A stretch of DNA of 64,000 bases from Diphasiastrum complanatum (taxonomy: Eukaryota > Streptophyta > Lycopodiopsida > Lycopodiales > Lycopodiaceae): contig CM055097.1 of assembly GCA_029204225.1 (NCBI GenBank), positions 7,087,676-7,151,675 on the forward strand, in the 5' to 3' direction. The notes under the pieces were generated by a model that was not told the DNA's origin, did not search any database, and saw nothing but the letters and a program-made list of their open reading frames with translations. Within the stretch, counting starts at the first letter, position 1. Every line of letters starts with the position of its first letter. Positions 1,341 through 48,079 of the stretch are shown here, in pieces. The position numbers and the translations under genes are program-made.

Positions 1341-1602
1341 TGTTAGAAATCAATGATAAACTTCATTGTTACTGTTTACGAGGTACACTAATGTTGATAG
1401 TTGTGACCAGCTGTCATTAGCCATAGGCTAGTCTATTAGTCTACTCATAGGTTTTCTCTCTATCAGGGTTCAAGATTTATTTGTACATTTTAACATTCTG
1501 TATGAGTGAAGTGCGATAGTGTGATAGTGCGTGTTCTTCTTCTGCCTTCTTGTGGTGATTGCTTATGGTGAATGCTTGATGTTGCATATCTAATTCTTAA
1601 CA
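1341..1602 (+). repeat. 3' LTR of Copia-1 (262 bp)
   Basis: Begins TGTTAGAAATCAATG right after the purine tract GAGGGAGAG and ends TTCTTAACA, giving the TG...CA termini of an LTR. It matches the two LTRs of element D (28846-29106 and 30348-30608) over its length, with substitutions and small indels. It is more diverged than D's pair, so it is the older insertion. Confidence 0.88.
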
Positions 1603-15031: not shown

Positions 15032-15565
15032 TCATCTAAGAGGATAGATCTTGATAATGTTTTGTATGTTCCATCCATTACAAAAAAATTGCTTAGTGTT
15101 GGTCAACTAATGGACAATGGACTAGATGTACATTTCAAGGATGGAGTACGTCCAACTTGAAAAGTGATAAGTGCATAGCTAGTGGCATTAAGCAAGAAAG
15201 GCTTTTTAAGTTGGATGCTAATGTGGCCATTGAAAGTGTGAATATGGTTAGGGAGGAGATACCTCAAGTGGAGCTTTGGCACAAAAGATTAGGCCATCCT
15301 AATCTTCAATCAATGGAGTCCATGGCATCAAAGGAGCTAGCTCTCGGCCTACCAAAATCATTCAAGAAGTGTGGCAAAGTGTGTGAGGCATGTGGCCTTG
15401 CAAAGTCACACAAGACTTCCTACAAGAGATCTTTGACAAGATCTACTTCACCCTTGGATCTTATTCATTCAGATGTACATGTTTTTTTTCATGAAAGTAA
15501 TGGAGGTGCCTTAATGTATGTGACTTTCATAGATGATTGTACTAGATTCACTTGGATTGAATTAC
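15032..15565 (+). pseudogene. Element B: pre-integrase and start of integrase, truncated
   Basis: Pre-integrase reads at 15157 onward (LWHKRLGHPNLQSMESMASK, then CGKVCEACGLAKSHK), followed by the first integrase block LIHSDVHVFFHE and YVTFIDDCTRFTWIEL. The sequence then departs from A at 15565, exactly where CACAAGAAAACATG starts. The remainder of pol and the 3' LTR are absent from the window. The break looks like the left end of a DNA transposon insertion with subsequent loss of the right flank, or a deletion breakpoint. Confidence 0.85.
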
Positions 15566-16080
15566 ACAAGAAAACATGTAGCAAATATCCACGCACAATA
15601 CAAAGGAGGTGGCGCGAACAAAAAAAAATTCGCCTGGATAGACGTGGATATACGCGTGGATACGGTCGCGTGGATGTTCCACGTAAGTGTCATTTCCGGC
15701 AGCAGATCGGCCAGAGGTCATGAAATTCAAATTGCATGAATTATCCATGCATGGATTATCCACGCCAACTCTGACAACCGGGCAAAATCTCCGACATCCA
15801 GAGCCGGAAATGAGAGTAAGATTTTAAAAAAAAGACTCGGCTTTTGCGTGGATATGGCATGGATATTGCATGGCAAATTATCCACGCGTGGATAATCCAC
15901 GTAAAATCCAGAGAGCTGGGGCCATGGATACCGCATGGATAAATTTTTTTTTATATCCACGCGGTATCCACGTGATTAAATCTCTGGATTTTGTGTGGCT
16001 TATCCATGAGTGGATAATCCATGCAATTTTTTTTGACCAAAAAAAAAACATTTGGCGAGAACCAAAATGTTGTTCGCTCC
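15566..16080. repeat. Left subterminal array of TATCCACG palindromes (putative CACTA end)
   Basis: Starts CACAAGAAAACATGTAGC, close to plant CACTA inverted-repeat ends. It then carries more than a dozen copies of TATCCACG or TATCCATG in both orientations, several as palindromes such as TTATCCACGCGTGGATAA at 15878-15895. Dense short motifs near the ends are the binding sites of TNPA-like proteins in known CACTA elements. The matching cluster is at 18316-18376. Assignment to CACTA is inference from motif layout and the gene between the clusters. Confidence 0.55.
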
Positions 16081-17270: not shown

Positions 17271-17975
17271 TTACAAAAATAGAATCATAGTAAAAAATAT
17301 TGCACTTACAAATTGGGCCTCTAGATTGCCCCTTCCTCCCGATCCCAAGTGACTTTGGTCATGTTTTAAGAGCTTCTCGGCGGCGACTCTATGTTGTTGT
17401 TCATACTTTTGGGGATCGTTTTGCAACAATTCCCCTTTCACCTTCCTCCAATCCCTTTTGGAGCACCATCCAGGCTTCATGGGATTCCTCACGACTCTTC
17501 TCATCAATTGCCTTTTGTTTCGAATCCAAAGGCACATTGAATTCAAGGCCCAAGTCCTACTAAAAGCATTGAATTGAGGGAATTTAGAATATAAAGTCTC
17601 TATTATTTTATTTTTGTCTTGAAGCGATTGGGAGGACCAATCGATCATGTAATCTTTACCAAAATATAAAGCAACTAAATCACGCAAATGGGCATAAACT
17701 ACATTGCCACACGTATTTTTTATAACTCCATCACGTGGATTAAGATCATAATACACACTACATGATTCATGGGAAGGAGCATCTTCGGAAACTCTTCTCT
17801 CGGATGATTTACCCAAAGAAGATAACACAAGATTTTTTATTCTCTCTCTTTGTTGAGGAGATAGATTCTCAAACCACTCTTGATTATATTCTTTGGGCTC
17901 CTCAAGAGCTCTTCTCCTAGATGGTTTCCCACTTGACCTTCCACTTGACCTACCACTTGAAGATATTGTATCAAA
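17271..17975 (-). pseudogene. TNPA / Transposase_24-like protein of a CACTA element
   Basis: The minus-strand open frame extends upstream of its first usable start to about 17975, where a stop (TAA) is followed by a possible splice acceptor (TTTTAAAG). Residues read a Ser/Gly/Arg-rich N-terminus, then WFENLSPQQRERIKNLV, then a central block (DYMIDWSSQSLQDKNKIIE and WALNSMCLWIRNKR). The last block is WRKVKGELLQNDPQKYEQQH with HLGSGGRGNLEAQF. The last block resembles the HTxGSKSF-type end of the plant Ptta/En-Spm Transposase_24 family, DNA-binding accessory proteins of CACTA elements. It lies between two TATCCACG palindrome clusters that could be its binding sites. The frame drifts into an intron-like 3' end (AIFFTMILFL), so the gene probably has more exons. 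Family assignment is moderate. Confidence 0.5.
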
Positions 17976-18315
17976 GAAAAACTTTAAAAGTTAGAAAGTA
18001 GTGGAGAATGGGAGTGAAAGAGTAGTGAAGAGTGTTAGATTAGAAAAGTAAGCAATGACAAGAAAGCAATAGATCAATAGTAAGCAAGAGCAAGCAAGAT
18101 CAATAGATTAGGAAGAGATTGCAAGCAATAGCAAGAGCAAGATCACTAGCAAAGAAGGGCAACCAAAAGCAAGCAAGCAAGATCTATAGAGCTTGGAAGA
18201 GCAATAGCAAGCAAGAGCACTAAACACTAGATTAGGGAAACCTATAAAACTTGAAAGCAAAACAAGAGGAGCAAGAATGCTCACGAAAATGCGATTTTAT
18301 TGGCATTCAAGTTTC

Positions 18316-20181: not shown

Positions 20182-20337
20182 ATGACACTGAAAGAATTTG
20201 TGCCATTTGCAATTGGATTATTGGACCAATTTCAACCAGAATATGATGGGAGGATACCATGTACATGCACACAATGCAAAGGCCTTAGGATCCAGACAAA
20301 GAGGATTGTCAACGATCATATTTGGGCCAATGGAGTG
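20182..20337 (+). pseudogene. CACTA transposase-associated-type zinc motif exon, 5' part (split by element C)
   Basis: An open frame from ATG 20182 reads a hydrophobic/acidic helix (FVPFAIGLLDQFQPEYDG) and then a cysteine motif IPCTCTQCKG. A basic stretch ending in NDHIWANGV follows. The CPCxxC...HL/HI pattern is that of the plant transposase-associated domain found N-terminal to TNP2 in CACTA elements. The frame is interrupted at 20337 by the 5' LTR of element C. It resumes in the same frame after C's 3' LTR, which shows that C inserted into a coding exon. Confidence 0.6.
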
Positions 20338-20987
20338 TGTGAAAGATTCAACTAGTTTCATCACATTTTGCAATATTTCCATATTTGGCATATTGAGGCC
20401 AAAACTTGTTTTAGACTTAGAGGTTGACTTTTTAAAGTTCATTAGTCTAAATTTCATTTGAATAAACACTTTTTGAAAGTGTGGGAAAGATAGAATGCGA
20501 GTTTGAGTAGATTCAATTTGAATAAGTTGGGTACATTGAATCTAGACCCAAAATTGGTAGGGTTAGCAGTTTGGTGGGAAAGCCAAGTGGCCAAATAGGA
20601 TTTGGACCTGTTATAAAAGGATGTAACTCGTGGAGAGAGTCATCTTCTCTCTTCTCTATCTCATTTCATGCTTATACATGGTTCTCTTGGGTTCTACTAT
20701 CCATTGGTGCACTATCTTGGTGATTGCTTGCAATTCTATGTGTAGAATGATCTACATTTGCTATTTTTGGATCCACACATGTGAAATACAGTAGCTTGCT
20801 GGTTTTGTACGGACAGAAACAATACATAATCATTTCATTCAAGTTTGATCAAGTTCTATTAGTGTTTGCATCTCAAATTGTGTGTAGATGCTGATTTTTC
20901 TACATTGGTGAAATTGATAGTGTATTTCTCTTTCTAACCAAAGATCATTCAAGTAGATTGAATCTTAAGGATCTGAAATCTTTCACA
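20338..20987 (+). repeat. 5' LTR of element C (650 bp)
   Basis: Begins TGTGAAAGATTCAAC and ends GAAATCTTTCACA. A TATAAAAGGATG box at about 20613 is followed about 35 bases later by a CT-rich start region, a plausible RNA polymerase II promoter. An antisense piece of this LTR family is at 13270-13362. Confidence 0.92.
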
Positions 20988-20999
20988 TGGTATCAGAGC
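20988..20999 (+). other. Primer-binding site of element C
   Basis: TGGTATCAGAGC, complementary to the 3' end of plant initiator-Met tRNA, directly after the LTR. Confidence 0.9.
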
Positions 21000-21587
21000 T
21001 TGTGTTTCAGGTTATGAAGGAGGAAATCAGATCTATCAATGATTTGGCGAGGATATCAAGTCTAGAGCATGCTAGAGAGGATTCTACACCAAAATCGGAT
21101 TTTTTGCTTTTGTAGATTGGATCTTTTGTAGATCAAAACACTAAGTAGGTCAATATACTTGTTCAATTCCGTTTTTTGAATTGACATGCTGGATTTGGCC
21201 GATTTTTGGATCATTGGCTCAGCCTAAGTGGTGACTTATAGATTGCATATCAAATTTTCAGCATTTGCATGTAGATTTGGAAAAGTCAATTTTTTGTGAT
21301 TTTGTCAAAACCCTAATTTTGATTGGATCTCTAGATAGTGAGGTTGCTGGACTTCATTTGAGTGTGTTTCAATCTTAGGAAGTGGCAAAAGTCATTAAAC
21401 TGAGGATAGATCATAGGTTGATCAAGATTCCATGATTCTATGTGTTGATTTGCTTGGATAAGTGCTAGAAGAGAATTTGTGAGATAGTTTCAAATCTTGG
21501 TGATTTCTTTTGAAAGCATTTGTTGTTGTTCAAGGAGTGCTTTGTGCATTGAAGCAGGTTGAAAGAGAAGATCGGGTCATTGCAATC

Positions 21588-22497
21588 ATGTTGGAAGCCA
21601 ATGATAGGCTTACCTCAAGTAACTATTCATTATGGAAAATGGGATGGAGTCACTTCTCGAGATGAATGATGTTTTGGATATTGTTGTAGGTTTGGAGGAG
21701 AGACCAGCAACACAACAAGATCAATTGAGGTATGACAAGAGGGCCAAGAAGGCTCTACACATGATAAAGATGAATGTTACCAATGAACTTCTCAAGGAAG
21801 TTGGTAAGTGCACATCATCTTTGGAAGCTTGGAATTCATTGAAAAAGCTTTATGAATCCAAGTCTACTTCTAGAGTGTTGACTCTAAGAAGGCAAATCTT
21901 TTCTTGTTTGCAAAAGAATGAAGAAAGTCCAAGTACTTTTGTTTTGAGAATGAAGGCATTGAATGATGAGTTAGCTTGCATAGATGAAAGCATTAAGGAA
22001 GGAGAGCTTATTCAAGTGATTCTTAATGGCTTGTTGGATGCTCATGCTAACATTGTTCAAAGTATCGCTATTCAAAAGACTTTGCCAAGTTTGATGGATC
22101 TTCAAGAGATCTTGATCAATGAGGAATATAGGCTTCAAGCAAGAGGTGGATCTACATCGACACTTCAAGAGGATGCTATGTTCACAAAGGGCAAATTCAA
22201 GGGCAAAACCAAAAGCAAGTGGTCTAAAGGGCAAGATCAAGTGGATGCTTCTTCAAGTGGCAAAAAGAAGGATAGATCAAAGCTCAAGTGCTTCTATTGT
22301 GGCATCAAAGGACACTTTGCAAGTGAGTGCTACAAGAAGAAGAGAGATCAAGGAGACAAGCAAGGTAATCTTACTCTTGATGAGGATGGTTTGGATGTGC
22401 AAGATGCAAATGATGATGCTTTTGTGATGTCTTCATGTATGCCTGCTAATGATGGAGATCTAGATCCTTGGTGGATTGATAGTGGAGCAAGTTCACT
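21588..22497 (+). pseudogene. Element C: Gag and protease start
   Basis: Gag begins at ATG 21588 (MLEANDRLTSSNYSLWK). A one-base loss near 21640 shifts the frame, and Gag then reads openly from 21632 (MESLLEMNDVLDIVVGLEE). The CCHC knuckle CFYCGIKGHFASEC lies near 22290. The protease motif WWIDSGASS is intact at about 22470. The bases encoding the following His-Met segment are missing, and the frame shifts at about 22497 into the next ORF. Gag would assemble the particle. The frameshifts make this copy non-productive without correction. Confidence 0.9.
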
Positions 22498-24035
22498 CAC
22501 AAAGAGTATTTCACTTCTTTGTTGGCATATGGAGATGACAAGAGGGTGATCTACACGGCCAATGATGGTGAGTGTGCAATCAAAGGGATTGGCACAATTC
22601 CTATTTCTCTCTCTACAAATAGGAATGTTCATTTGGAGGATGTCTTGTTTATTCCATCTATTACCAAGAATTTGCTTAGTATGAGTCAAATGCTAAGTAA
22701 GGGCCTCAAGGTGGAGTTTGATGGAGATGCTTGTTTGATCAAAAGGAAGGATGTCTTGATTGGAAAAGGTAAAAGGCAAGGGAAGTTGTTCAAACTTGAT
22801 GCTTGTGTTATTGCTAACCAAGTTGGATGTGTTGCAAGGGAGCAAATTTCTATTCAAGAGGTTTGGCACAAAAGGATGGGACACCTCAACTTCAAGTCAT
22901 TGGAGGTAATGGCAAGGAAGAAGGTTGTGATTGGTCTTCCAAGTTCCTTAGGTAATGACAAGCATGTTTGTGAGTCTTGTGCTTTGTCTAAGTCACATAG
23001 ACTACCTTATACTAGATCTATTTCTAGATCTACAAAGCCTTTTCAACTTGTACATTCGGATATTCATGGATTTACTACAATTAGCAATAGTGGAGCTAAG
23101 ATGTATGTAGCATTCATTGATGATTCTAGTAGATTTTGTTGGATCTATCTACTAAAGAGCAAGGATGAAGTGTTTGATGTCTTTGTCAAGTTCAAGAATG
23201 CAAGGGAGAACCAATTCTCCACAAAGATCAAGTGCTTGAGAGGTGACAATGGTGGTGAGTACATATCTAACAAGTTCAAGGCCTTTTGTGATGAGCATGG
23301 GATCAAGAGGGAGTATACAACATCAAGGACCCCACAACAAAATGGAGTGGCTGAAAGGAAGAATAGAACTTTATGTGAAAGTGCTAAAGCTATGAGGTTA
23401 AGTGCTAATCTTGACAAACCATTTTGGGATCAAGCTTTGTTGTGTGCCAATTTCTTGTGCAATAGGTGGCCGAGTGCTATTTTGGATGGAAGGACACCTT
23501 TTGAGATGCTATTCAAGAGGAGGTCGAGTGTCAACTTTCTAAGAACCTTTGGATGCACATGCTATGTCAACATTACTCTTGATGATAGGACCAAGGAGGA
23601 TCCATCTTCAAGAAGAGGTATTTTTGTTGGATATAGTGAGGTGAGTAAAGCCTACAAGGTTTACATTCCTTCTACTAACAAAGTGATTATTGGTAGAGAT
23701 GTCATTTTTTATGAGAGAAACATTCCAAAGGTGTATTCAAGCATGATTGATGGTAAGGTAGATGGATCTAACATTCTTGATTTTGATGAGAAGGATCCTA
23801 CTTTGGATGGTGGTGATGATGGACCTTCATCAAGTCAAAAGCCAAGGAAAACATCAAGAGAAAGACAAGTACCTTCAAGGCTCACATATGATCAAAAGGG
23901 TAAGCAAGTAGTTTCTAGAAATTATGTTGCTTTCCTAACCTCTTTGGATGATCCTACAAGTGTAGATCAAGCAAGGAGAGAAGAGGAGTGGATCCAAGCA
24001 ATGGATCTTGAGTATCGATCTCTTATGAAGAATAG
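22498..24035 (+). pseudogene. Element C: protease remainder, pre-integrase and integrase
   Basis: A long open frame from 22519. Protease C-terminal part (YTANDGECAIKGIGTIP, NLLSMSQ), zinc-binding pre-integrase HKRMGHLNF...CESCALSKSH. The integrase core keeps its three catalytic acids: D in LVHSDIHGF, D in RGDNGGEY and E in NGVAERKN. The integrase C-terminal FVGYSEVSKAYKVY block follows, then the linker to RT, which stops being copia-like after DLEYRSLMKNRT at 24035. This is the best preserved integrase in the window. The frame continues into foreign sequence. Confidence 0.92.
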
Positions 24036-25050
24036 AACATCTTTTGGAAGATCTTCTTGTGTACATGGAGCTATGCAAGTGGATGGATGTTATTTTGCTG
24101 TAAAATCAAGTAATGGATCTGGAAAAAAAAATTTGTTCAATGACTTTGATGGTCAAGTTGAAGATCAAGAGGTTGATCTCAAAGCACTTCAACTAGTCAA
24201 AAGGGAAGTTGGCAATTTGGAGCTAGTCAAGAGCATCAAAGGAGAGGTAATTGGCAAAGGTGTTATGGATCTGTTTTTGCAGCATATTGAAGACTCAAGT
24301 AAGGTCAAAGGAGCATCAAGGAAGTGTTTTTCAAGTTTACTTTACTTGTTCTATCTCATGTTTGAGCAATTTCATGTGGATGTGTGCAGATTGTCAAGAT
24401 ATGGTAAAACTAGCTACATTGGTGAGCATTGTTTTGATGTTGGATTTGTACTAGCATTCTTGGCTGATTTTGCTGATGGAAATGAAGCTATTGGAGGTTC
24501 ATTATGTCACTCATCCATGGCTAAGCTCTCAAGTGTTGAGCTTGTGTCAAGTAGATCTTGAAGATGGACTAGTGCAACCTACTTGGTTTATGGAGTCATG
24601 TGGTGCTAGATTGGCATCATTAATGTACTCATCTACTCATAGATTTCCAAGGTTTGATGGTTTCTTGTGGCAAGATGAAGATGGAGGCTCATTCATGGAG
24701 TATCATGGTGGATACAAGGCAACAAAGGACAAAGGAGGAGGAGACATGCAAGCAAAAGTTTATCACTCACATTTATTGTTTGTTTGCTGTATTTTTCCAG
24801 AGAGTTCAGAGTTGGAAGCATGGTGGAATCATTTCATTTACATTCTATTTGATTCTTCATGTTCTAGTCACATTTTTACATGTAAAATTGATGCAAGAAA
24901 TAGTGAAGCATCCCAAGTGGACACTATTCTCTATATCAATTATGGTTGTTTCTATTTTGAGCATTACATGATCATTAAAAGGAGATCTATTCTTAGGAAG
25001 AAGATCATTCTTATGATGGATCAAAGTTCTATTGGCAAAAACTATGCTAG
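24036..25050 (+). other. Non-copia insert replacing RT in element C
   Basis: Exactly where RT should follow, about 1015 bases of unrelated sequence appear. The integrase frame stays open through the first half (to 24561), giving SFGRSSCVHGAMQVDG and an Asp/Glu/Lys-rich segment (FNDFDGQVEDQEVDLK). Then come hydrophobic stretches (SSLLYLFYLMFEQFHVDV). A second open frame covers 24470-25066. No RT motif (YVDD, TAFLNG) is present on either strand. Copia sequence resumes at GAGCATTGG (25051). It may be a captured host transcript or a piece of another element; the source was not recognised. Confidence 0.8.
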
Positions 25051-25638
25051 GAGCATTGGAAGCTAGGAAAGCGAGTTTTGAGGTACATCATTGGAACTCG
25101 AGATTTTGGCATATTGTATGAGAAATCATCACCTAATATTTTTGGATTTTCAGATTCGAACTATGCTGGAGATGTAATGGATAGTAAATCCATTAGTTCT
25201 TATTGTATTTTCATAGGTGATGGAGCTATTTCATGGATGTCAAAGAAACAAGCCACTATCTCATTGTCATCTAGTGAGGCCGAGTACAAAGCTCTTACAC
25301 ATTGCACAAAGGAGATGGTATGGATCAAAAGGATGATCAAGGATCTTCACTTGCTAGATTTTTCAGAGAGCCCAATCATATTTCTTGACATTCAATCAGC
25401 CCAAAGAATGGCATCCAATCCTATCTTTCATGCTAGGAGCAAGCATATTGAGATACAATATCATTTTGTGAGAGAGCGAGTCATTGCAAAGGAGGTGGAG
25501 CTTCAACATGTGTCTTCAAGGGAATGTGTAGCTGATATCTTCACCAAAGCATTGGGAAAAGACTTGTTCATGAAGCATAGGACTTCACTTGGAGTATTAT
25601 CAAAGTTTATGCTAAAACTAGTTGAAGAGGAAGTGTGA
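25051..25638 (+). CDS. Element C: RNase H and pol C-terminus
   Basis: The frame KRVLRYIIGTRDFGILYEK opens the RNase H domain. It has FSDSNYAGDVMDSK, SWMSKKQATISLSSSEAEY and HARSKHIEIQYHFVRERV, and ends with ADIFTKALGKDLF and LVEEEV. No stop or frameshift is seen from about 25054 to the TGA at 25636-25638, which overlaps the first bases of the 3' LTR, as in many copia elements. The enzyme would degrade RNA in the RNA:DNA hybrid, but it is cut off from an RT here. Confidence 0.9.
   Translation, partial: EHWKLGKRVLRYIIGTRDFGILYEKSSPNIFGFSDSNYAGDVMDSKSISSYCIFIGDGAISWMSKKQATISLSSSEAEYKALTHCTKEMVWIKRMIKDLHLLDFSESPIIFLDIQSAQRMASNPIFHARSKHIEIQYHFVRERVIAKEVELQHVSSRECVADIFTKALGKDLFMKHRTSLGVLSKFMLKLVEEEV
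25622..25633 (+). other. Polypurine tract of element C
   Basis: TTGAAGAGGAAG immediately before the 3' LTR; it would prime plus-strand DNA synthesis. Confidence 0.8.
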
Positions 25639-26283
25639 AAGATTCAACTAGTTTCCTCACATTTTGCAATATTTCCATATTTGGCATATTGAGGCCAAAA
25701 CTTGTTTTAGAATTAGAGGTTGACTTTTCAAAGTTCATTAGTCTAAATTTCATTTGAATAAACACTTTTTGAAAGTGTGGGAAAGATAGAATGCGAGTTT
25801 GAGTAGATTCAATTTGAATAAGTTGGGTACATTGAATCTAGACCCAAAATTGGTAGGGTTAGCATTTTGGTGAGAAAGCCAAGTGGCCAAATAGGGTTTG
25901 GACCTGCTATAAAAGGATGTAACTCGTGGAGAGAGTCATCTTCTCTCTTCTCTATGTCATTTTATGCTTATACATGGTTCTCTTGGATTCTACTATCTAT
26001 TGGTGCACTATCTTGGTGATTGCTTGCAATTCTATGTGTAGAATGATCTATATTTGCTATTTTTGGATCCACACGTGTGAAATATAGTAGCTTGCTGGTT
26101 TTGTACGGACAGCAACAGTACATAATCATTTCATTCAAGTTTGATCAAGTTCTATTAGCGTTTGCATCTCAAATTGTGTGTAGATGCTGATTTTTCTACA
26201 TTGGTAAAATTGATAGTGTATTTCTCTTTCTAACCAAAGATCATTCAAGTAGATTGGATCTTAAGTATCTGAAATCTTTCACA
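25634..26283 (+). repeat. 3' LTR of element C (650 bp)
   Basis: Same length and ends as the 5' LTR, with scattered substitutions (for example TTTCCTCAC against TTTCATCAC near the start). Confidence 0.92.
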
Positions 26284-26380
26284 AAGTGCACACAGAGAAT
26301 CCAAGAGTTTGAGAGAAAATCTTTGACCCTTATGACACTTCAAGTATAGTTTGGCAAATAAATATTGAGCGATAGGATGA
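26284..26380 (+). pseudogene. CACTA transposase-associated exon, 3' part (after element C)
   Basis: After one 5-bp target copy the frame of 20182-20337 continues with HTENPRV, one TGA where tryptophan is plausible, then FDPYDTSSIVWQINIER, and ends at a TAG near 26375. The continuing frame on both sides shows that the site was coding before C arrived. The stop may be the real end of an exon read into an intron. Confidence 0.55.
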
Positions 26381-26395
26381 GTGCCACGATACTCT

Positions 26396-26570
26396 GAAGT
26401 TAATCTCTCACTTGCTTTAAAAAAAAAAAATCCAAATAGAATAATTAGATGAAGTTAATCCCTCACTTGCTTCTAAAAGGAAAAATCCAAATAGAATGAT
26501 TGATGAAGTTAATCTCTCACTTGCTTTTAAAAGAAAAAATCCAAATAGAATTATTAGATGTAGTTAATCT
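26396..26570. repeat. 55-bp tandem repeat, three copies
   Basis: Units start GAAGTTAATC(T/C)CTCACTTGC at 26396, 26451 and 26505, with a fourth start (GTAGTTAATC) at 26560. Each contains AAAATCCAAATAGAAT. It lies between the split exon and the first GA microsatellite. Confidence 0.85.
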
Positions 26571-26610
26571 TGATTTTCATATCCAATCACCCATAATAGA
26601 CTCATTCACG

Positions 26611-26726
<116 letters not shown>

Positions 26727-26947
26727 ACCAACACTCCCAATTCTAGGAAGGTGTGTAGCCCTTGTTTTCTTCCGTTAAAGATGTGGTTCAAATGTTTTTT
26801 GTTGGAAGATGAGTTCCACAAGAAAGCTCAAACGCCGTAGGGAGGAAGCATGTGGTGACATTCTGGAGTAGGATATAAGTTTTGATTAGCACTCTATAAT
26901 GTTCTCTCTGTTTTTCTCTTCATGTGTGTTTAGGGTGGGTGTGGGTT

Positions 26948-26949
<2 letters not shown>

Positions 26950-27024
<75 letters not shown>

Positions 27025-27043
27025 TGTGTGTGCATGTGTGTGT
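26950..27043. repeat. (GT)n microsatellite, about 94 bp
   Basis: TG dinucleotides, pure to 27020 and then interrupted by TT and CA. Long alternating purine-pyrimidine runs can adopt Z-DNA. Confidence 0.97.
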
Positions 27044-27093
27044 TTCATGCTACTAGTTTACGGTTTGTGTTATATATTAATTTATGTTTCATG

Positions 27094-27209
<116 letters not shown>

Positions 27210-27632
27210 TGATATATCTAACATTTTTAACTTTTGCAGAAGAAAGAACATAAGTTGGTTTCAAGGAAAAGAGTTGCAAGAGAAATAGAGAATATTATTG
27301 ATAGGATAAATCACATGAATATTGATTTTGGATCATCATTGGCCTTAGATGATGCTCTTGTTGATGATGATCCCTTGCATGATATAATTAGTTCGTCAAT
27401 GCCTCGTGATTCAATCCATGTCTCCAGATCTCTAGAACGTTCTTACCACCAACCACACCTATCCTAGATGTTGCACATGAGTCCTCCATGATACTCCACG
27501 TGGATTCCACAAATATGACCACCTTTTTAAAAAAGAGAACACGTCTTGGACGTATTATGACTAGTTTGAAAGATAATTGCAAATTACTACGCACAGTGAT
27601 GTGTCAAAAGACATTCTAGGTTTTTTGTCTGA

Positions 27633-28259
27633 CCTTCTTTTTCCACCTTGCAACCATTAGTAAAGACTTTCATTAGAAGTAGATATTCATGTTGGCCACT
27701 CCAATCACCATTACCATTAAATGGAACACCATTTACATATTGGGGTCGAATGTACATGATCATGCTTAGTGAACACTTTCCTGAGGCTGGTTTGGGCCTT
27801 TTTGCATTGAGTAGTATTGAGGTCCCTCTAAATACTGTTGTGACATTGATGTCATATGCAGGACCTCAATACAATTGGGGTGATTGGCATGCTTTGTGTC
27901 GTCACCAATGGAAGATGCAAGTATATGGCTTGAATGCAAATGCTTGTTCTTTAGAGGAGCAACACATGCAAGGAGGCAACATCTCAAGGGCAAGTCGTAC
28001 ATACATTGATGGACGTCCAGATGTGCATGGAAACATTGCTGCATATATAAATAGTTCCATTGGCCACCCTCTATTGATGAATTGTGATTTTGAAGAACAC
28101 ACCAATGGAAAAGAAGAATATTTTACTAGGAATGTAAAGGGCACTTATGTAATGGTTTGTGCCACTAGATCTATCAGGGTTGGAGAGGAATTGTTCATCA
28201 AGTATAGTTTCAACTGTCCTCTACTCAAATGTTTGCAAAAGACAATAAGTAAAATGTGA
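27633..28259 (+). CDS. SET-domain protein ORF inside the CACTA locus
   Basis: An open frame of about 205 codons, with no ATG at its start (first in-frame ATG at about 27750; the upstream stop at 27630-27632 suggests a 5' exon). Motifs in SET order: GLGLFALSSIEV near residue 50 (GxG cofactor-binding strand) and SYAGPQYNW. Then come HGNIAAYINSS and NCDFEE (equivalent to the RFINHSCxPN block) and VMVCATRSIRVGEELFIKYSF (the GEELxxxY end). SET domains transfer methyl groups from S-adenosylmethionine to lysines, often on histones. A preceding open stretch (27234-27467, REIENIIDRINHMNIDF) may be an upstream exon. It lies on the transposase strand, between the transposase-associated exon and the TNP2 exons. 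It is therefore either a transposon gene or a captured host domain. The SET call is good; the exon structure is unknown. Confidence 0.65.
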   Translation, partial: PSFSTLQPLVKTFIRSRYSCWPLQSPLPLNGTPFTYWGRMYMIMLSEHFPEAGLGLFALSSIEVPLNTVVTLMSYAGPQYNWGDWHALCRHQWKMQVYGLNANACSLEEQHMQGGNISRASRTYIDGRPDVHGNIAAYINSSIGHPLLMNCDFEEHTNGKEEYFTRNVKGTYVMVCATRSIRVGEELFIKYSFNCPLLKCLQKTISKM

Positions 28260-28845
28260 AGATTTAAATTTTGTTGATATGCAGAGATGTATAATCCATG
28301 CACCTTGATTGTATTTGGTTTGTGTCATTAAATATGTCAAATGTTAGGAGCATTATTCGTCAAGCATTATTTGTCATTTGCCTAGATGTTTACATAAGAT
28401 AGTAAGTGAAAGCTAATGAATGTGAAATGTATAAATATGTAAATATGTAAAAGCGTGCAATTCTTTGAGTTCATTGAATGTTAACAAGTTGAAAAAAAAA
28501 TGGTCTAATAGATACATTGGTATGTTCATACTTTTTAAACAAAGAGGTAGTTTATATTCATATGCAACATTTAGATCTATCAAGTACTGGGAGGAAATGT
28601 TTATCAAACATTGTTTCAAACTATTTCTTGTTATTTTGGTATATAGGATTCTTCATTCTCATTTAGTGTTGGAGACAATAATCCTCGTAATGGTCGACAT
28701 AGACGACGAATGTCATACAACGGTCCTCATATAAAGCAATTATCTCGTCATCTACGTCAAGGCTTAAAAGAGATGATGGAAATTGATGAGCGTATTAATC
28801 AAGAGACTAATGCATCTGAATCTAGCTCATCTAGATCTACTTCTT

Positions 28846-29106
28846 TGTTAGAAATCAATGATAAACTTCATTGTTACACTTCTTAGTTACTGTTTACGAT
28901 GTACTTTATTACTAGCTGTAACTAGTCGTTGGCTAGTCTAGTAGTCTACTCCTAGGTTCTCCCTCTCTATCAGGGTTCAGGGTTTATATGTACATTTTAC
29001 ATTCAGTATGTTGTAGTGTGATAGATTGATAGTGTGTGTTCTTCTTTCGGCTTCTTTGGTGATTGCTTATGGTGAATGCTTGATGTTGCATATCTGATTG
29101 TTGACA
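28846..29106 (+). repeat. 5' LTR of element D (261 bp)
   Basis: TGTTAGAAATCAATG ... GATTGTTGACA. It differs from the 3' copy at only a handful of positions by eye, so the insertion is young. Confidence 0.95.
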
Positions 29107-29118
29107 TGGTATCAGAGC
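29107..29118 (+). other. Primer-binding site of element D
   Basis: TGGTATCAGAGC directly after the LTR, complementary to initiator-Met tRNA. Confidence 0.92.
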
Positions 29119-29649
29119 AGCAATAGTCATGTGTGCCTGACCAGTGGACACAAAATGTCATAGGCTCCGCAACGAAGTGAGAAAGTCCTTCATGGGAGGT
29201 GAAAGCTTGGAGAGATAAAAACGGCTGGAAGAAATCCTTCTTTGGTGTATTTTGTAGGTCTGGAGCTCAGAATCATCAGTGGGAAACAAAGACACAGTCT
29301 TGGAGGCATCCAAAAGGCTAGGGCAGCATCAAACAGATTGAAAATCTGTTGAGTGGGAGAGATTCTTACAATACCTCCTAGTTGTTGTGGAAAGTGCTAT
29401 TTGTGTGAGAGGTTTGCCAAGAAATCTCTTATTTGTCTGTTTGGAGTACCACAAATCACACTAGATAGTATCTAGTACTGTCATTCAGAGCTAGAAAGCT
29501 TCATACTTTTCACATTACTGATATCTGTCTGTTTGAACGATCACTTGTTTCAAAATCTAAGCAAAGAGGAGGCGACGTAGCTGCCGCGCCAAAGTAGGAA
29601 ATCTAAAATATTCCCTCTGAAAGTTCCTATATTCTCTCTTTTTTATATC

Positions 29650-29885
29650 CGTATATCGGATCCAAGTGCGCTAGCTAAAGAGAAACCCGAGCAGTCGTAC
29701 ATCCGCACTCCTGTCCGATATTGTTTGTACCAATATCGGATCCAAGCGCACGAGCTAAAGAAAATTTTGAGTAATTGTACATCCGCGTTCCAGTCCGATA
29801 TCTCATGCTCCAATATCGGATCCATGCGCACAAGTTAAGGAGGATCCTGAACAGCCGTACTTCTGCGCTCCATTCCCATATCAGG
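29650..29885 (+). repeat. 80-bp tandem repeat in the leader of D, three copies
   Basis: The block TATCGGATCCAAG(C/T)GC followed by an (A/G)GCTAAAG segment, GTACATCCGC and CCGATAT recurs with starts near 29653, 29733 and 29813, and diverges toward the third copy. It is GC-richer than its surroundings and lies in the untranslated leader. Confidence 0.85.
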
Positions 29886-29956
29886 TGTATAACCAGAAAA
29901 ATATATACAGTTTTGTGGTGTGATATATTACTTGATCTAGACTCATCTGTTTAGTA

Positions 29957-30268
29957 ATGGCAACTCTAAGCGAGAGTGTCCTCAATGAGTCAAGCAAATT
30001 GGAAGGAGCCGGCAACTATGCAGTTTGGAAATTCAAGCTGAAAAATATTTTGATGAAAAAGGAGCTATGGGAGATCGTGACAGGTGAAGAGACAAGGCCA
30101 GTGATTGAAGAAGATCAGCGGACATTTGATAGGAGAAAACAGAAAGCACACAATGTCATCAACTTATCAGTTAGAGATGCAATTATTCCCTACATTTCGG
30201 ATTCAGAAGGACCAAAAGAAACATGGGATACGTTGAAGGCATTGTTTGAGACCACAAACACATCTTGA
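29957..30268 (+). pseudogene. Element D: N-terminal Gag fragment
   Basis: ATG 29957 begins a clean copia Gag start (MATLSESVLNESSKLEG, YAVWKFKLKNILMKKELWEIV, ETWDTLKALFETTNTS). It ends at TGA 30266-30268. About eight bases later the sequence jumps to pol C-terminal coding (RCKFEKFRTLLGIEECNF in another frame). A full Gag would be several times longer and include a zinc knuckle. The fragment could not form particles. Confidence 0.9.
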
Positions 30269-30347
30269 GTGCTTAGGTAGATGTAAATTTGAAAAGTTTC
30301 GTACTCTACTAGGAATAGAAGAATGTAATTTTATCATTGAGGGAGAG

Positions 30348-30608
30348 TGTTAGAAATCAATGATAAACTTCATTGTTACACTTCTTAGTTATTGTTTACG
30401 ATGTACTTTATTACTAGCTGTAACTAGTCATTGGCTAGTCTAGTAGTCTACTCCTAGGTTCTCCCTCTCTATCGGGGTTCAGGGTTTATATGTACATTTT
30501 ACATTCAGTATGTTGTAGTGTGATAGATTGATAGTGTGTGTTCTTCTTCCGGCTTCCTTGGTGATTGCTTATGGTGAATGCTTGATGTTGCATATCTGAT
30601 TGTTGACA
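30348..30608 (+). repeat. 3' LTR of element D (261 bp)
   Basis: Preceded by the purine tract GAGGGAGAG. It ends GTTGACA and is followed by the TTCTT target copy. Confidence 0.95.
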
Positions 30609-33344
30609 TTCTTCACAAACAAGTTCCAACGATGAAAATGAGCTTCCAATGAATGAAGAATTTGAAGTCATGGGAGACATGTTGGATGATATGTACGAGA
30701 ACAATAGTGCAGCTAGACACAATATGAACAAGATGAGGAGACACTTTTGTCTAAAGAAGAAAAGAAATTGTGAGAAGAATCAAAGACCACATTGTATCCT
30801 AGATCAAAGACATCTCGTTTGGCGACTTCTCTACTTCCATTAAATCTTCAAGCCAAATATAGATGGAGTGACCAAAGCCTCACATCATTATTTGAGTAAA
30901 AAAAAATTCATCTACTTGTCATTTTTGCTTTGAGACAAAATTTACAATTTGGACATCTATTGATAATTTTTTTACATTGACTTCTTTTGTCATGTACAGA
31001 CTATTGAAAAACAAAATTCTCCCAGAAGGGAATGTCATGCCTGAGACAAGAGATGAGGCACGAAAGATGTTGTCTAACATCGAGATGGACTACAAGCAAT
31101 ATCATGCATGTCCAAAAGATTGTATTTTATGTCGAAGAAAGTACAAATCACTCAAGAAATGTCCCATTTGTGATACTCCTCGATATAGAGATGATTTGCA
31201 AGGGGCAATCATTTCGTGCAAAGTTTTATGACATTTTCCAGTAATTCCACGATTGCCACGTTTATTTCGTTGTAAATCTCTTGCAGAACTTATGGACTGG
31301 CATGCACACCATACTTCTACGGATGGGATGATGAGGGTACACTAGTAATTCCTGGCATTTACATGATATACTACAATGGCTAGAATTATTCTTTGACATA
31401 TATTTTTTTTAATAGTGATTGATAGTATACATTTGTTGGGCAGGCTTTCAAACGGCTGGAAAAAAAATGTTTGTTTTTTGTGCGGGCCAAATCTTGTGAA
31501 AAGATGCTATTATAATCTCAAAAAAATGGTTTATGAAAATCATCGTAAATATTTGCATGAAGGCCATCCATTCAGAGACACTCATAGAAGAGGTTTTGGA
31601 GGAAGAGTTGAGAGAGAGATGCCTCCAAAGAGGATGTTTGTGGAAGATTGGCTATGGGAGGAATCTCAAGCAAAGCCAATCGATGGTTTGAAAAGATTAT
31701 CTATATTTCATCGTTTGGAATATTGGAATAACCTTTTGATTAATCACCTACTTGATCCCATGCACATATTTAAAAATGTGAGTGAATCTATTTGGAAACA
31801 CTTGATTGGTGAAAGAGATACCATTGCTGCAAGGCACGATCTAAAAGAATCAAACACCAAAAAAGAATATTGGATAAAGGATGGTGAAGATCATGCTCCA
31901 AAAGTACCTTGGACATTCACTAAGGAGGAGCTTAACCATGTGCGCTCCATTATTCATGACATTCGAACACCAACTGGTTTTGCCCATTCTCTACGGTCAT
32001 CATTCACAGTGGATGGAAAGTTGCAAGGTCTCAAATCTCATGATTGGCTAAAGATGATTCAATTCATCTATCCATTGTCAATTTGCGGGTGCTTGTCAAA
32101 AGATATTTGTGAGACCATATACAAACTATCAATCATTGTCAGGTATTTACATGTACTTGGTGCCTTTTTTAATTTAATATTTATTGACTGGAAATTCAAA
32201 TAGACATAAAATGGATTGAATATGTTGCAGATGGATGTGTTCAAAAGAAATCCGTGAGCTGGATCTTCGCAAGAGACATGAGGATATGGTGGAGATTGTG
32301 TGCATGTTTGAGAGATATTTTTCGACTTCCATCATGGACTCGCAAGTGCATTTATTGGTGCACTTGGTTGAAGAAATTTCTATTGCTAGTCCAGTACACA
32401 CTAGGTATAAGTGCATAAATTTTCTTTTGCATGTGTGTTTGAACTGAATCAATTGATACATGAACTCATTAAATAAAACACTTATGTTTAATCATTTGTG
32501 ACTTTTTAGGTGGATGTTCTTTATGGAAAGATACATGAAAGTCTTAAAAGATTTTGTGCATCAAAAGGCAAGGCCTGAAGGTAGCATGTCAGAGGGAAGG
32601 TTAGTACATGAATCTAAAAAGCAACAAAAGAGGGACAAAAAATATCAAATGCAGAATGAGACTTTGCAAGAAGATGCGAATGGAAGGTATTATTCTTTAG
32701 ATACTTTATTATTAGAACATTCTCGTTTATAACAATATTTGTTTAATCATTTTGAAACACCATGTTCATTCACAGTGATTATTTATGAGATTCATGTTTG
32801 CCATGTGGCAATGTGAAATGTATAATGCTATGTGGGCTTTTGATTTTCACTTTTGTGTTGAAAGGATTGATAACAAGAGACGCACACACAATTGTGGTGT
32901 AATAGCATCTTTCCAACAAGAAAGTCAAAGCAGTGCACGAGATCGGAATCTCATCTCAAGAGACATAGAATACGTAGGAACTATACAAAATATTTATGAT
33001 GTGTCATTTGGTGAAAGTGGACACTATTTTTTATTTGATGTGAAATGGTTCAAGGTAGTTTGTAGAGGGCCAAATGCAACCATAAAATCGGATCCAAGTG
33101 AATTTTTTGCGATTGATTTATCAAAAACATTGAGCATGGAGTCCTTTGGCACATTGGTGTTGCCTCGTCACTGTGAGCAGGTGCACATGCTATGCTATCA
33201 TGTTTTTCATTTTAATGCAAGTGACTTTAGTATTTGAGTTTTTGATATGTTCTAAAATAGTAATTTCTATAGGTGTTTTTTCAACCAGATCGACTAAACA
33301 AGATATGGTGGTTTGTAGCTCAAGTTGAACCACGTTCACGATGA

Positions 33345-33480
33345 TCATAGTCAATCCCCTTGAATTGAGCATATCCCTTGGCAACTAGTCTTGTTTTATA
33401 ATTGTTCACACTACCATCTTGATTAAGCTTGATCTTAAAGACCCATTTGCAAACAGTAACATTTTGTATCTTTGATGAAA
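33345..33480 (-). pseudogene. Antisense copia RT fragment
   Basis: The minus strand reads [19 protein letters not shown] and [17 protein letters not shown], the conserved RT fingers of copia elements, ending next to the transposase stop. The frame upstream (33480-33690) is degraded. It probably belongs to the element whose primer-binding site is at 33689-33700, with integrase and most of Gag deleted. Confidence 0.8.
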
Positions 33481-33688
33481 GATCAATAATTTTACAAGTA
33501 TCTCAAACAATGCATCATATACTCACTTTTCATTATATCAAATCACTCTTTTGTTGCTAAAGTTTCATTCACACTTGAAGGAACATTATCAAACTTAAGG
33601 TAGTAATAAGGGCAATAAAAATTAAACAATCACCAACTTGTAATTGCTTCTCTCTTTCTTGTATTTGAGCCTTGATGGTTGCATTTGT

Positions 33689-34330
33689 GCTCTGATACCA
33701 TGTTAAAATTAGACATTATGAACCTCATTTGGATACTAAGACATTGAAAAAGCATCAAAGGTTTCACTTATATCTAATAGATAGAAAACTAGCACACACA
33801 TTAGAGGAAGTTTAAACACAAAAAGGGCCTTTTGTCAATATTCCTTTTTCATTTTTTATTCACTTTTTTTGTACATGTGGCCCAATAGTTTCTTGACATA
33901 GTGGCTTTAACGTAACATTACTTCTTTGAGTCTACACTAAAAATGGCATAACTTTTGATTGCCATATCAGAATGCGACGAAAATTGGTGCGTTGGAAAGC
34001 GCTTGACGAGCGCGTGCTTTTCAATGATATATTACTTGTTATATTTCTGAGCTACTACTGAAAAGTTATAGCGATTTAAAGATATTGGTTGAAAATAGTG
34101 ACAAAATGCAAAATAGATCTTGGCACGAATTCATATGCAGCCCTTTTTGAACTCAAACTTCCCCTAATAATTCAACCTATTTTGCATCTAATTGGCAAGA
34201 GCTTTTGAACACCACAATAAAACTAAAAATAATTGATCTTCACATCCTGTCACACATGTGGAAAGTATAGTACTTTGTTCAAATTCAGATCTATTCATTA
34301 GACACAAAAAACATCACATTCATCATTCAT
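33689..34330 (-). repeat. Primer-binding site and presumed 5' LTR of a minus-strand copia (right end uncertain)
   Basis: GCTCTGATACCA at 33689-33700 (complement of TGGTATCAGAGC). The minus-strand sequence just before it ends GTCTAATTTTAACA, an LTR-type end starting at 33701. The LTR then runs right for several hundred bases, including CACACATGTGGAAAG near 34250. No second LTR is present, so the right boundary is a guess. Confidence 0.55.
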
Positions 34331-35168
34331 CAATTCCTCATTAAAGAGCAAACTTGCCAAAATCATCATCTTTTGATAATCTCTCAAAGTATGTACAAAA
34401 TGAGCTCTCAATCCATATGAAATGATCTCGGATATGAGATTAGGGTAGAGTGCCATTAGGGTAGACCCTAAACCCCTGGGTATCAAAGCCTTAGATCATG
34501 CATAATTACCTTCTTGGTAGCTCGAGTCAACTGTCTTACAAAAGTAGGTGGCCGACCTCATCAAAAATCCCAATCATCTAGGAACATCATGATATAATTC
34601 ACTTTAAAAAAATATTTATTTAACTAATTCCATTTCATTATCAACATGCAAAAAAAAAAAAGAAAAACTTGGACTCCATAAGTAGTGTATTGTATCCATT
34701 GATAATTTATTGGTCAAAGCAAGTCATGTCAGATCAATATACATCAGAAGCAGACTTTGTGTATTCACAGACGTAGTGTATTGTATCCATTGATAATTTG
34801 CTGGTCATGTTAGATCAATCTACATCGGAAGCAGACACTATGTATTTACAACGGAAAATTTATCTAAAGACAAATTGCTAATTGCTGAATTGCAGCATTT
34901 GTAGCCTTTTATTCTTGGAAGCCAGTCTAGTCACTCATGTTGTCCAATAGAGGAACTGTGAGCAAATACTAACACCGATATTGATCTGCATTTCTAGGCA
35001 GCAATCATGTATGATCAAGTAGTATGCCGTAACCTTACCTCTTGTTCTATTTGGACTCAGTTTATCGATTGAAGGAGACGGATCAGATGGGTTACGGCAT
35101 TGAAGGATCAGGGTGATGCGATGCATAAGATGGGCTGCAGAAATGGAGGATCATGATGAGATGGATTT
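34331..35168. other. Intergenic DNA and 3' flank of the GDSL gene
   Basis: No gene seen. A diverged direct repeat occurs at about 34681-34750 and 34770-34850 (words GTAGTGTATTGTATCCATTGATAATTT, ATGTTAGATCAAT and ATC(A/G)GAAGCAGAC). The segment adjoining 35168 is probably the 3' untranslated region of the gene on the minus strand. Confidence 0.5.
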
Positions 35169-38062
35169 TCATATGGGGTTGAGATCACAGAGCTGGTCCA
35201 AATCAAAGTCGCTGGGGTCAAAGAATTTGCTTGTCAGAAGCTGTTGCACAGTGTAGTGATTGGCAGCCTCTGTGAAGTGGACGCCATCCCAGTTCAGGTA
35301 GATGGATGGGTTGGAGCAGGAAGGAGCAACGAGATCAAAGTTCCCAAATTGGGTCTTGCTCCTTCCACATTGTTGATTATTGTCATAGTTGTAAGGCCCT
35401 CCTGCTCCGCAGCATGCTCTCGTTGTAAACTGAAAGCCTGCAAGAACACAACAAAACATAGATCAGTAGCAGATCAGCAGACAAGAAGCATTGCCTCATG
35501 GTCCATGGATGTAAATGGTTATTGCAGTCGCTTAGGTATAAGAATTTGATTAGCTAACCGTTTTGGGATGCATTTGCTGTTAGTTGATACTTGACGGAAA
35601 AGGAGTCAACGTAGACAATTGAAGCATTAGCTAGCTGTGATCTGAGACTCCCCACGGCTTGCTTGAGCTGAGAATTATAGTACCGCACAATGTCATTGAA
35701 TTCCTCGCCACAACCCAGGGCGTCCTTGGTTGTACGGAGATACCCAAAGTTGGTGAGTATGTAGGGAGTACATCCCTGAGGACCAACATCTGACACTAGG
35801 ATGGTCCTAGCTCCTGCCTCATACAAGCCCTGATCAAACACCAAAGCAAACAGAAACATATATTGGCATGAAGTTGGCACCCACTAAGCCTATTTGATTA
35901 TAATGGCGCTAAAAAATCAGCATTATTTGAGAACGGAATCTGCATTTTTTTTTCTCAAAACTCGGTTTCAGTAAAAAAATAAAAGCATGTTGGCTCCTAA
36001 AAAACTAATACTCCCTTTCTTAGGTAAGAGAATATTATGTCCCAATACTTCATTAAATAATGATAACGCTCTAATAATTAAAATTCTTTGAGAATGGAAT
36101 CGGAGTTTGTTGACCAAAGCTCAATCGCAATGAGAATCTGAAGGATGTTGGCTTCTAAAAAACGGTCACTTACATTATTAGATAAGAAATTTGATGTCCC
36201 AACAGAGTACTTATAATTAGTAAAACTAAGTCAAGTGACAACATTTTTTATCCAAAAATCGGCAGTTATTCTTAGGCAGTAAATCTTCTGCCTTGACAAA
36301 ATACTGAAAATAATTAATCCTCAAGTTCTCTAGTATGCAAGATTCATTACTCTCACTCAAACTACTTATTAGATCGTAGATTTGTTTTTTGCAGGCATTC
36401 TAGTTATATTTTGATTTTGCCTAAACAATGACAAGATTATTATAAATTACTCGCACTCAAACTACTTATTAGATCGTAGATTAGTTTTTTGCAGGCATTC
36501 TAGTTATATTTTGATTCTGCCTAAATAATGACAAGATTATTATAAAGAGTCCTTTCAAAACTTTCACACATCAATCTATTTCCGTTCGAGGGAGTGGTAA
36601 GGCCTGAAGAAAAAATTCGTACTAACAAACTGTCATGAGTTCAGGCAATTTAAACTATATATTAGGCAAATGTATAGTCATTGTATCTTGACTTCCTTTT
36701 TTAGCGCTTTCACACAACCATCAACTTTTGAATTAAAATTCAAGGGAATCTAACCTATAGCAATGGCAAATTTTACTATGCTCCATGAGTGTATAAGAAT
36801 AAGAAGTTGTGGCTTATGACAGCCATGGCAAGGAGGGGCCCACCTTTATCAAAGGTGGTTGGGCATCAGATCAAAAGCACCCACCACCCATGGGTTGAGT
36901 TGGGTTCCCCCCGGTTCTCCATGCCGTGGGAGTCACATTTGTGTGTACACTTTTCCCAGGTTTTAGAATACAACAATCTTACAAAACCATCATCCTCTAA
37001 GTTTAGCTAATAACCTAAAATAGGATTTAGAGGACACAAAATTTAGAGCATGTTCAACCTCACAAAAGTGCAGGGTCTTTACAACAACGTCTTCAGAGCA
37101 CTCCTTTTAAATGAGATTAATGAGGCGTTTTGTTTCAAAGTGGCAGCTACACCAACTATCGATGCAGTAAGGCATACCTCCACAGCAGTGGAGATGGCCT
37201 CTACCACTTGAGGAAGATAGCTCTTTATCTGATGAAAACTCATATTCCTGTTGTAGCCATAGGTGAAGTCATTCCCCCCTATATCCACAATGTAGAGCGC
37301 TTGGCTGAACACATCGGGGGTGGGCAGGTTGGAGCTGCTTGGCTGCTTCTGCTGCTGCTGAAAGTTTCCTGATCGTAAGCGGAACTCGTTGAATTGATTC
37401 AACTGGACGTTGAGAGAGAAGGGAGTGATGTAGTTGATGGCTCTGGCGGTGGCTCCTGCAGTGGCAAAATTGACACCAGTGCTAAAGTCCGATCCCACCG
37501 ATTGGAGGTAAGCGCTTAGGAAGGGCAGCCCCAATGCCTGGCCTGCAATCACCAGTAGCTACCATCAAAAGACGATCAAGAGCAAAGGGAATTCTTCAAT
37601 AAAGGCGTGCTCTCCAATAAGGACTGGAAGTGCAACTGAAAGAAAAATGTATGACCGTGCCAGCCACAGGATAAGGAATGATCAGAAGTGAATCCTCCAA
37701 TAAGAGCTGTGCATACATACAAAGAATTAAAAAATGTGAAGTGAGTCCTTCCTGGCTGAGCATACATAGAAAGAAAAAAGTGAAGCTGGGGGACCTGCTT
37801 TGTACTTACAGATGAAATCGATGGCAAGGCGGCCATCGCTATAACGCCATGCAGGCTTGCCGAAGAAGGTGATGCCATAGGGAGGGAATTCGGATTGACT
37901 GAAGGTGGGAAAGGCTGACTGGATGCCCCCTGTGTCAGATGTGGAATCTCCGAAGTTGAAAATGGCTGGAAAGGAGCACTTCCCCTCCATCAAGCATCCA
38001 TATTTTAGCTGCAGCAGCAGAAGAACAAGCAAAGCTAGGGCCTTTGTAGCTCCCAAACTCAT
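35169..38062 (-). CDS. GDSL esterase/lipase, four exons, 385 aa
   Basis: A complete plant GDSL (SGNH-hydrolase) gene. Exons on the minus strand: 37810-38062, 37178-37542, 35559-35829 and 35169-35437 (253, 365, 271 and 269 nt; 1158 in total). All introns are GT-AG and the phases agree. The N-terminus has a signal peptide (ALALLVLLLLQL), so the enzyme is probably secreted or apoplastic. Block I is FNFGDSTSDTGG with the catalytic Ser near residue 40. Block II is GVNFATAGATA, block III VDIGGNDF, and block V has the catalytic Asp/His in WDGVHFTEAANHY near residue 350. It hydrolyses ester bonds of lipid or cell-wall acyl substrates. The FFGKPAWRYSDGRLAIDF segment places it with the ENOD8/fucosidase-like branch, but the substrate is unknown. 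No lesion is visible, so this is the best intact host gene in the window. Confidence 0.93.
36350..36547. repeat. ~98-bp tandem duplication in GDSL intron 2
   Basis: Two adjacent copies sharing ACTCAAACTACTTATTAGAT, GCAGGCATTCTAGTTATATT and AATGACAAGATTATTATAAA, differing at a few bases (TTTGTTTT/TTAGTTTT, CAATG/TAATG). It lies inside the 1.35-kb second intron. Confidence 0.92.
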
Positions 38063-38154
38063 ATTTGCCAGCTCTTCTTTGCAGCTTTGTCACGCTATCC
38101 TTGATCACTAATACAATTATCCAAGGCACTATGATCTCAGATTAATCCAAAAGA

Positions 38155-47997: not shown

Positions 47998-48079
47998 ACT
48001 TAGGGTTAGCAATGGCATTAGTTCATGACAAGGCTTTTTAGGCTTTTTAGGTGGAGGAGAAGAGGAAGGATCGGTCGCG

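Follow-up and report, generated by a model that had tools for sequence, protein, structure and literature searches.

A SET-domain gene within a decayed CACTA transposon of Diphasiastrum complanatum

Does a SET-domain reading frame that lies among transposase exons belong to the transposon, and, if it does, does the transposon make use of it? This question is raised by an open reading frame at 27633-28259 of the window (the whole stretch of Diphasiastrum complanatum DNA analysed here, 64,000 nucleotides), which an earlier note had assigned to a CACTA element on the basis of its position. Our best explanation, to which we give a probability of about 0.7, is that the locus is a decayed copy of a high-copy CACTA (EnSpm) family with an extra SET-domain (protein lysine methyltransferase-like) gene, which would most likely serve against host silencing. 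The order of parts in the element is 5' end, divergent orfB, TAD exon, SET exon, TNP2, DUF4218, DUF4216-like exon and 3' end, and the features of the window copy are as follows.

15565..15590 (+): CACTA 5' end (CACAAGAAAACATGTAG...), inserted in a Copia integrase reading frame; the Copia homology (to 10265-10001) stops at 15565
15732..16026 (unstranded): 5' subterminal ATCCACGCGTGGATAA-type repeats, an inverted repeat; they match 3' subterminal repeats of other copies
17271..17990 (-): orfB, a divergent ORF of 239 codons; no Pfam match; same place and orientation in five of ten copies (c6, c2, c13b, c1, c4b)
20182..20337 (+): TAD exon (Transpos_assoc); Pfam PF13963, E 4.4e-5, 24.0 bits, below the gathering score of 27.7; cut by the Copia element
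20337..26283 (+): nested Copia retroelement, foreign to the CACTA element; LTRs 20337-20987 and 25633-26283, 96.9% identical
26285..27239 (+): intron-like spacer with 55-bp tandem repeats and GA/GT microsatellites; found in other copies too
27240..28259 (+): SET exon, from acceptor CAG/AAG to the shared TGA; about 341 codons when open, with frameshifts near 27450 and 27600 in the window copy
27633..28259 (+): open part of the SET exon, with SET domain PF00856 (ORF and Pfam)
28316..28619 (+): two decayed tandem copies of the SET 3' tail, after the SET stop; the last is present in most other aligned copies
28647..28859 (+): beginning of the exon that precedes TNP2, acceptor ATATAG/GATTCTTC
28846..30609 (+): nested small LTR element, foreign to the CACTA element, which splits the TNP2 5' exon; LTRs 28846-29107 and 30348-30609, 98.1% identical
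30938..31342 (+): N-terminal part of TNP2, recognised from its homology with other copies; no Pfam match; the ensuing stretch is missing in the window
31439..32143 (+): TNP2 (Transposase_21) C-terminal part; Pfam PF02992, E 4.3e-8, profile positions 144-206 of 213 only
32235..32600 (+): DUF4218, two exons; Pfam PF13960, E 8.4e-11 and 5.9e-9
32878..33344 (+): DUF4216-like exon, by eye; no Pfam match; kept in some copies
33344..34667 (+): 3' part of the element, terminus lost; relative to other copies there is a deletion at 33344 and inserted sequence at 33799-34168, and homology ends at 34667

The frame at 27633-28259 is 208 codons long and lies on the transposase strand; in both its strand and its SET hallmarks it agrees with what had been claimed for it. 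Pfam SET (PF00856) matches it with E 3.3e-7 and 31.1 bits (gathering score 22.4), and it also exceeds the gathering score in three longer-framed relatives, that is, in 4/4 copies tested including the window. A stop-free run of at least 208 codons arose in one of 200 Markov-1 simulations (8 kb each), and codon usage in the ORF frame lies 5 SD above that of shuffled sequence, with none of 1000 shuffles as high; a chance origin of the ORF is unlikely. All three motif regions that had been quoted are found, and in GLGLFA, YINSS and GEELFIKYSF each position is kept in at least 27 of 30 copies, except for one (an A, 23/30); GLG and GEELFIKY are retained in nearly all of the 30. The position of the NHS motif reads NSS, its middle residue being S in 30/30 copies, and a post-SET CxC cluster is absent from the SET sequence. 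NHS and post-SET residues are important in typical SET enzymes, and the altered NSS may weaken SAM binding. Sequence searches of the PDB with SET gave no relevant solved structure (one chance match of E 0.46, and none in a second search), an NCBIfam search gave nothing informative, a PHROGs search gave a single match that carries no functional annotation (E 0.039), and searches of viral, prokaryote, plasmid and phage collections gave nothing useful; the predicted structure of SET has a mean pLDDT of 29.7, which is too low for use.

Several features place the surrounding sequence in the CACTA/EnSpm superfamily: a TNP2 transposase, CAC...GTG ends, subterminal repeats and, in one copy, a 3-bp flank match. 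Close variants of the window's 5' terminus are present in c6 and L061 (c and L numbers denote individual copies and loci), a sharp common 3' end (inward CACAACTAGAAAACTC) is shared by c13b, c4b, c9 (as a small variant) and c7, and ATCCACGC-type subterminal repeats stand at the 3' ends of copies and again at 15732-16026 of the window. The terminal inverted repeats (5' CACAAG.. and 3' ..TTGTG) are exact in their first 5 bp and imperfect beyond. One complete copy was found (c9 with L061, G000:C9:43483644-43498330); it has CACAA...TTGTG ends flanked on either side by AAA, a 3-bp match that in a single copy can be chance, and each of the other copies lacks one of its ends. The end stretches of six further copies were examined and no ends were found in them. 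An initial search for ends at 18.3-20.2 and 33.3-35.2 kb of the window gave no excess over control regions, because the ends lie elsewhere. Two other candidates were discarded: 26409/33223 as terminal repeats (their flanks are unmatched, and 33223 falls within the DUF4216-like frame), and the view of 15.8-18.5 kb as a transposon in its own right (this stretch forms the 5' part of the SET-bearing CACTA element). The protein of orfB resembles, by eye, the second (TnpA-like) protein of CACTA elements; c4a has an orfB in another element of its stretch.

How often SET and transposase go together was read from the plant's own 1.74-Gb genome. In a search with SET the best 150 of 2625 first-look candidates were scored; these places, the window itself aside, are 84-92% identical to the window SET, and in 31 of the best 150 a frame of 336 or more codons is free of stops. 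Because some of the places duplicate each other closely (on a chromosome and on a small contig), the independent copies are fewer. Ten copies of 20 kb each were fetched, picked for long open frames, and their integrity is thus that of a non-random sample. The exon upstream of TNP2 lies 3' of SET on the same strand in nine of these ten (not c1), TAD lies 5' of SET in eight (not c3 or c4a; in c9 it is 6.4 kb off), and the TNP2 C-terminal part lies 3' of SET in six. When L002, L003, L004, L006 and the window are added to the ten, TNP2 sequence is found 3' of SET, in the same orientation, in 14 of 15 loci; L002 and L003 are alike, and L007 (a near-duplicate of L006), L005 (the same as c3) and L008 (the same as c13a) were left uncounted.

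A search with the TNP2 stretch, in which the best 150 of 5735 first-look candidates were scored, bears on the same point. Among the matches listed on large contigs (126 SET, 134 TNP2) there are 31 pairs no more than 6 kb apart in which SET precedes TNP2 on the same strand, the window being one of them, and 25 of these 31 are spaced 2.3-2.6 kb; no pair in any other arrangement within 6 kb occurs among the matches listed. The 95 of 126 SET places that have no TNP2 partner among the matches listed say nothing on true pairing. At the 12 TNP2 places that rank next after the window, SET is found at the expected upstream distance in six and not in the other six (two are paired with a listed SET, C11:18033343 and C7:63792919, and SET was found in four of the other ten, for each of which 700 bp were read); with the near-identical L063/L065 and L067/L068 each taken once, the count is 5/10. 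The upstream stretches read at those six places have no element match, a microsatellite (L064) or an inverted TNP2 piece (L066); they hold other sequence and so neither show nor exclude intact SET-less elements. The 700 bp of L067 (C2:17.896 Mb) and L068 (C16:44.959 Mb) are 100% identical, which may be due to recent transposition, a segmental copy or an assembly artefact.

Repeated co-occurrence of SET and TNP2 was the test named beforehand for carriage by the transposon, and carriage is borne out by it: the two recur in the same order and on the same strand, inside elements with defined ends. The opposite case, that the ORF belongs to a single ordinary SET gene of the host which happens to be interrupted at this locus, has the SET domain itself in its favour and nothing more; it is contradicted by the co-occurrence, by the presence of the sequence at no fewer than 150 places in the genome and by the TNP2 beside all but one of the 15 loci counted above, and we give it next to no credence. 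The SET segment could also be a separate transposon that became nested in the ancestor of this CACTA family, since it adjoins intron-like DNA with microsatellites and tandem repeats, but there are no end-like inverted or direct repeats around SET in the window and the 31 listed pairs all share one orientation relative to TNP2, and we consider such an origin very improbable.

The window copy is defunct: frameshifts, the insertion of two LTR elements, and the lack of the TNP2 core and of the 3' end leave it unable to make a complete transposase or a full SET protein. The middle of TNP2, read by eye as the catalytic core, is absent in the window and present in c13b, c9 and c4b. The upstream half of the window's SET exon is frameshifted, and 208 codons are open, as against 341 codons in the ten fetched copies (which were chosen for open frames). 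The Transpos_assoc match ends where the Copia element begins, which fits the earlier description of a transposase-associated exon from which an inserted element has to be subtracted. The GA and GT microsatellites at 26600-27206 occupy the same place in other copies and are thus part of the SET-bearing CACTA family. Beyond the element there are pieces of a GDSL lipase gene at 37082-38089 (-) (Lipase_GDSL, E 2.3e-11, with a sub-threshold match of 0.0028), a 409-codon frame at 48029-49255 (+) whose MPLKIP match stays below threshold (27.8 bits, cut-off 28.9), and broken frames at 59215-61849 (-) with, by eye, a YIDD-type reverse-transcriptase-like motif, possibly from a Penelope-like element; the latter frames have no Pfam match, and two of the four are without a relevant PDB match.

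The SET exon ends with ...CLQKT.SQM and TGA in the ten copies with flanks, and the same stop is present in the window. Since the exon has its own stop, SET and TNP2 do not share a reading frame, and a splice of SET to TNP2, which the earlier note had named as something to check, is unsupported. A candidate splice of this kind through GTAAGT in the second tail copy (28402) was rejected; this donor is not conserved, and in the window as in the ten copies a stop comes before it. The acceptor CAG/AAG of the SET exon is kept in seven of ten copies and in the window, and the first ATG lies about 25 codons past it, so an upstream exon seems to be needed for SET. Five copies were inspected for the end of the TAD exon; all have the donor GAG/GTAAAC, and in four the phase is 0 (c6 is frameshifted); the SET exon and the TNP2 5' exon both start in phase 0, and the acceptor of the latter is kept in 8 of the 9 copies that have that exon. 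Small candidate exons also lie between the TAD exon and the exons downstream. By their phases, TAD-SET and TAD-TNP2 splices would both be possible, so that one promoter could give both products. Probably SET is made as a product of its own, or as part of a TAD-SET protein by predicted alternative splicing, and not as a fusion with TNP2. A fuller account can be built on this, in which a chromatin methyltransferase gene was acquired by a CACTA lineage in plants and carried to at least about 150 places, one promoter yields TAD-SET and TAD-TNP2, and TAD aims the methyltransferase at the element's own ends; taken as a whole it strikes us as unlikely.

The element carries SET, and the pattern of nucleotide changes does not support use of SET by the element. 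Purifying selection on the SET exon was not detected in any of four copy sets (10, 15, 34 and 30 copies), in tests whose power is low, the copies being young and internal changes few. In the ten copies private changes have an N/S of 3.91 (3.04 expected) and shared changes are 20/11 (1.82, with 2.62 expected), neither of them significant. Shared changes among the 15 copies, a set that held the near-duplicates L002/L003, are 16 N and 12 S (3.03 expected; 56 of 1000 simulations at or below). This hint of constraint was gone with more copies: the 34 copies have 77/20 internal (2.93 expected) and 260/81 terminal changes (2.92 expected), and the set of 30, from which the near-duplicates L042, L055 and L058 and the stop-containing L002 were removed, has 23 N and 8 S internal (3.22 expected) and 304/91 terminal changes (2.89 expected). 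Such neutral-looking changes, together with the altered NHS motif, agree with a SET exon that was captured in the manner of Pack-CACTA elements and amplified with the element as a functionless passenger, and host-sequence capture is known for CACTA elements (PMC13317346, in the part available). We regard a passenger as somewhat unlikely, as the elements with SET are not gutted Pack-type elements: they keep TAD and TNP2 parts in most of the ten copies and DUFs in some, and, where a Pack-CACTA element has no transposase genes of its own, TNP2 sequence adjoins SET in nearly every locus read. The ten copies, which were selected for open frames, also keep one 341-codon frame and one stop. Moreover, neutral change after insertion is normal for any transposon gene.

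A second CACTA family lies beside the SET copy within L009 (c3 905-4442). Its TNP2 parts are 41-75% and its TAD 35% identical to those of the SET family, and its order (TAD, TNP2, DUF4218, DUF4216-like) is the same; c3 also carries, in or beside this family, an orfB relative with 30% identity. A search for SET in it gave a best match of E 0.53, and its TAD and the match to the TNP2 N terminus are some 0.6 kb apart. The exon was either gained by the SET family or lost by the second one, which is a useful outgroup for this gain or loss.

If SET is used against host silencing, as we favour, its protein would enter the nucleus and, through its predicted activity, modify chromatin or the transposase complex, and the element might then be expressed or mobilised despite the silencing; the element might in this way manipulate its own silencing. 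Plant SET enzymes are in some cases activating and in others repressive, and SET could instead be self-limiting, through repressive methylation that curbs the damage done by copies or through methylation of the transposase; nothing specific points to this, and we hold it to be distinctly improbable. Transposons with chromatin-modifying enzymes point to an arms race between elements and the silencing by their hosts. A plant CACTA family of high copy number in which many SET frames are long and open would be a tractable system in which to ask whether an element employs a histone methyltransferase to evade its chromatin state or to impose it.

The VANC protein is, to our knowledge, not a SET protein. 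It belongs to the VANDAL group of Arabidopsis MULEs, for which anti-silencing has been demonstrated (PMC5735166; this and the following papers are cited from the parts available), and the common point is an element-encoded anti-silencing factor, which is proposed here for SET. Primate SETMAR (PMC8704517) likewise has SET beside a transposase, but it is a fusion gene and not a mobile family. In one set of plant CACTA/EnSpm elements ORF1 comprises TAD, Transposase_21, DUF4218 and DUF4216, with Transposase_24 and Peptidase_C48 as extras (PMC8978399), and our family has the same domain order (TAD-TNP2-DUF4218-DUF4216-like) as Jozin of Chenopodium and, in its one complete copy, likewise has CAC/GTG ends and a 3-bp flank match; it differs from Jozin-type elements in the SET exon between TAD and TNP2, SET not being among the extra domains named in the available part of that paper. 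In the open-access papers searched (Repbase and most subscription papers were outside this scope) we came upon no plant CACTA element described as having SET. SET in DNA transposons is already known from oomycetes. The HarbingerS and MuDR families of Phytophthora bear SET methyltransferase genes (Kojima and Jurka 2014, cited in PMC12730594), and SET is recorded for 14 members of MULE-Phytophthora_1 (PMC6446971). The proto-Helentron-Pi of Phytophthora has a SET ORF described as similar to yeast Clr4, with conserved cofactor sites (PMC4067079); SET is a separate ORF on the transposon there as here, although that element is of the rolling-circle type. HarbingerS, MuDR and MULE-Phytophthora_1 have oomycete hosts and belong to other superfamilies, and they are compared with our family by description and not by sequence; what they all have in common with it is a SET gene beside the transposase in a DNA transposon.
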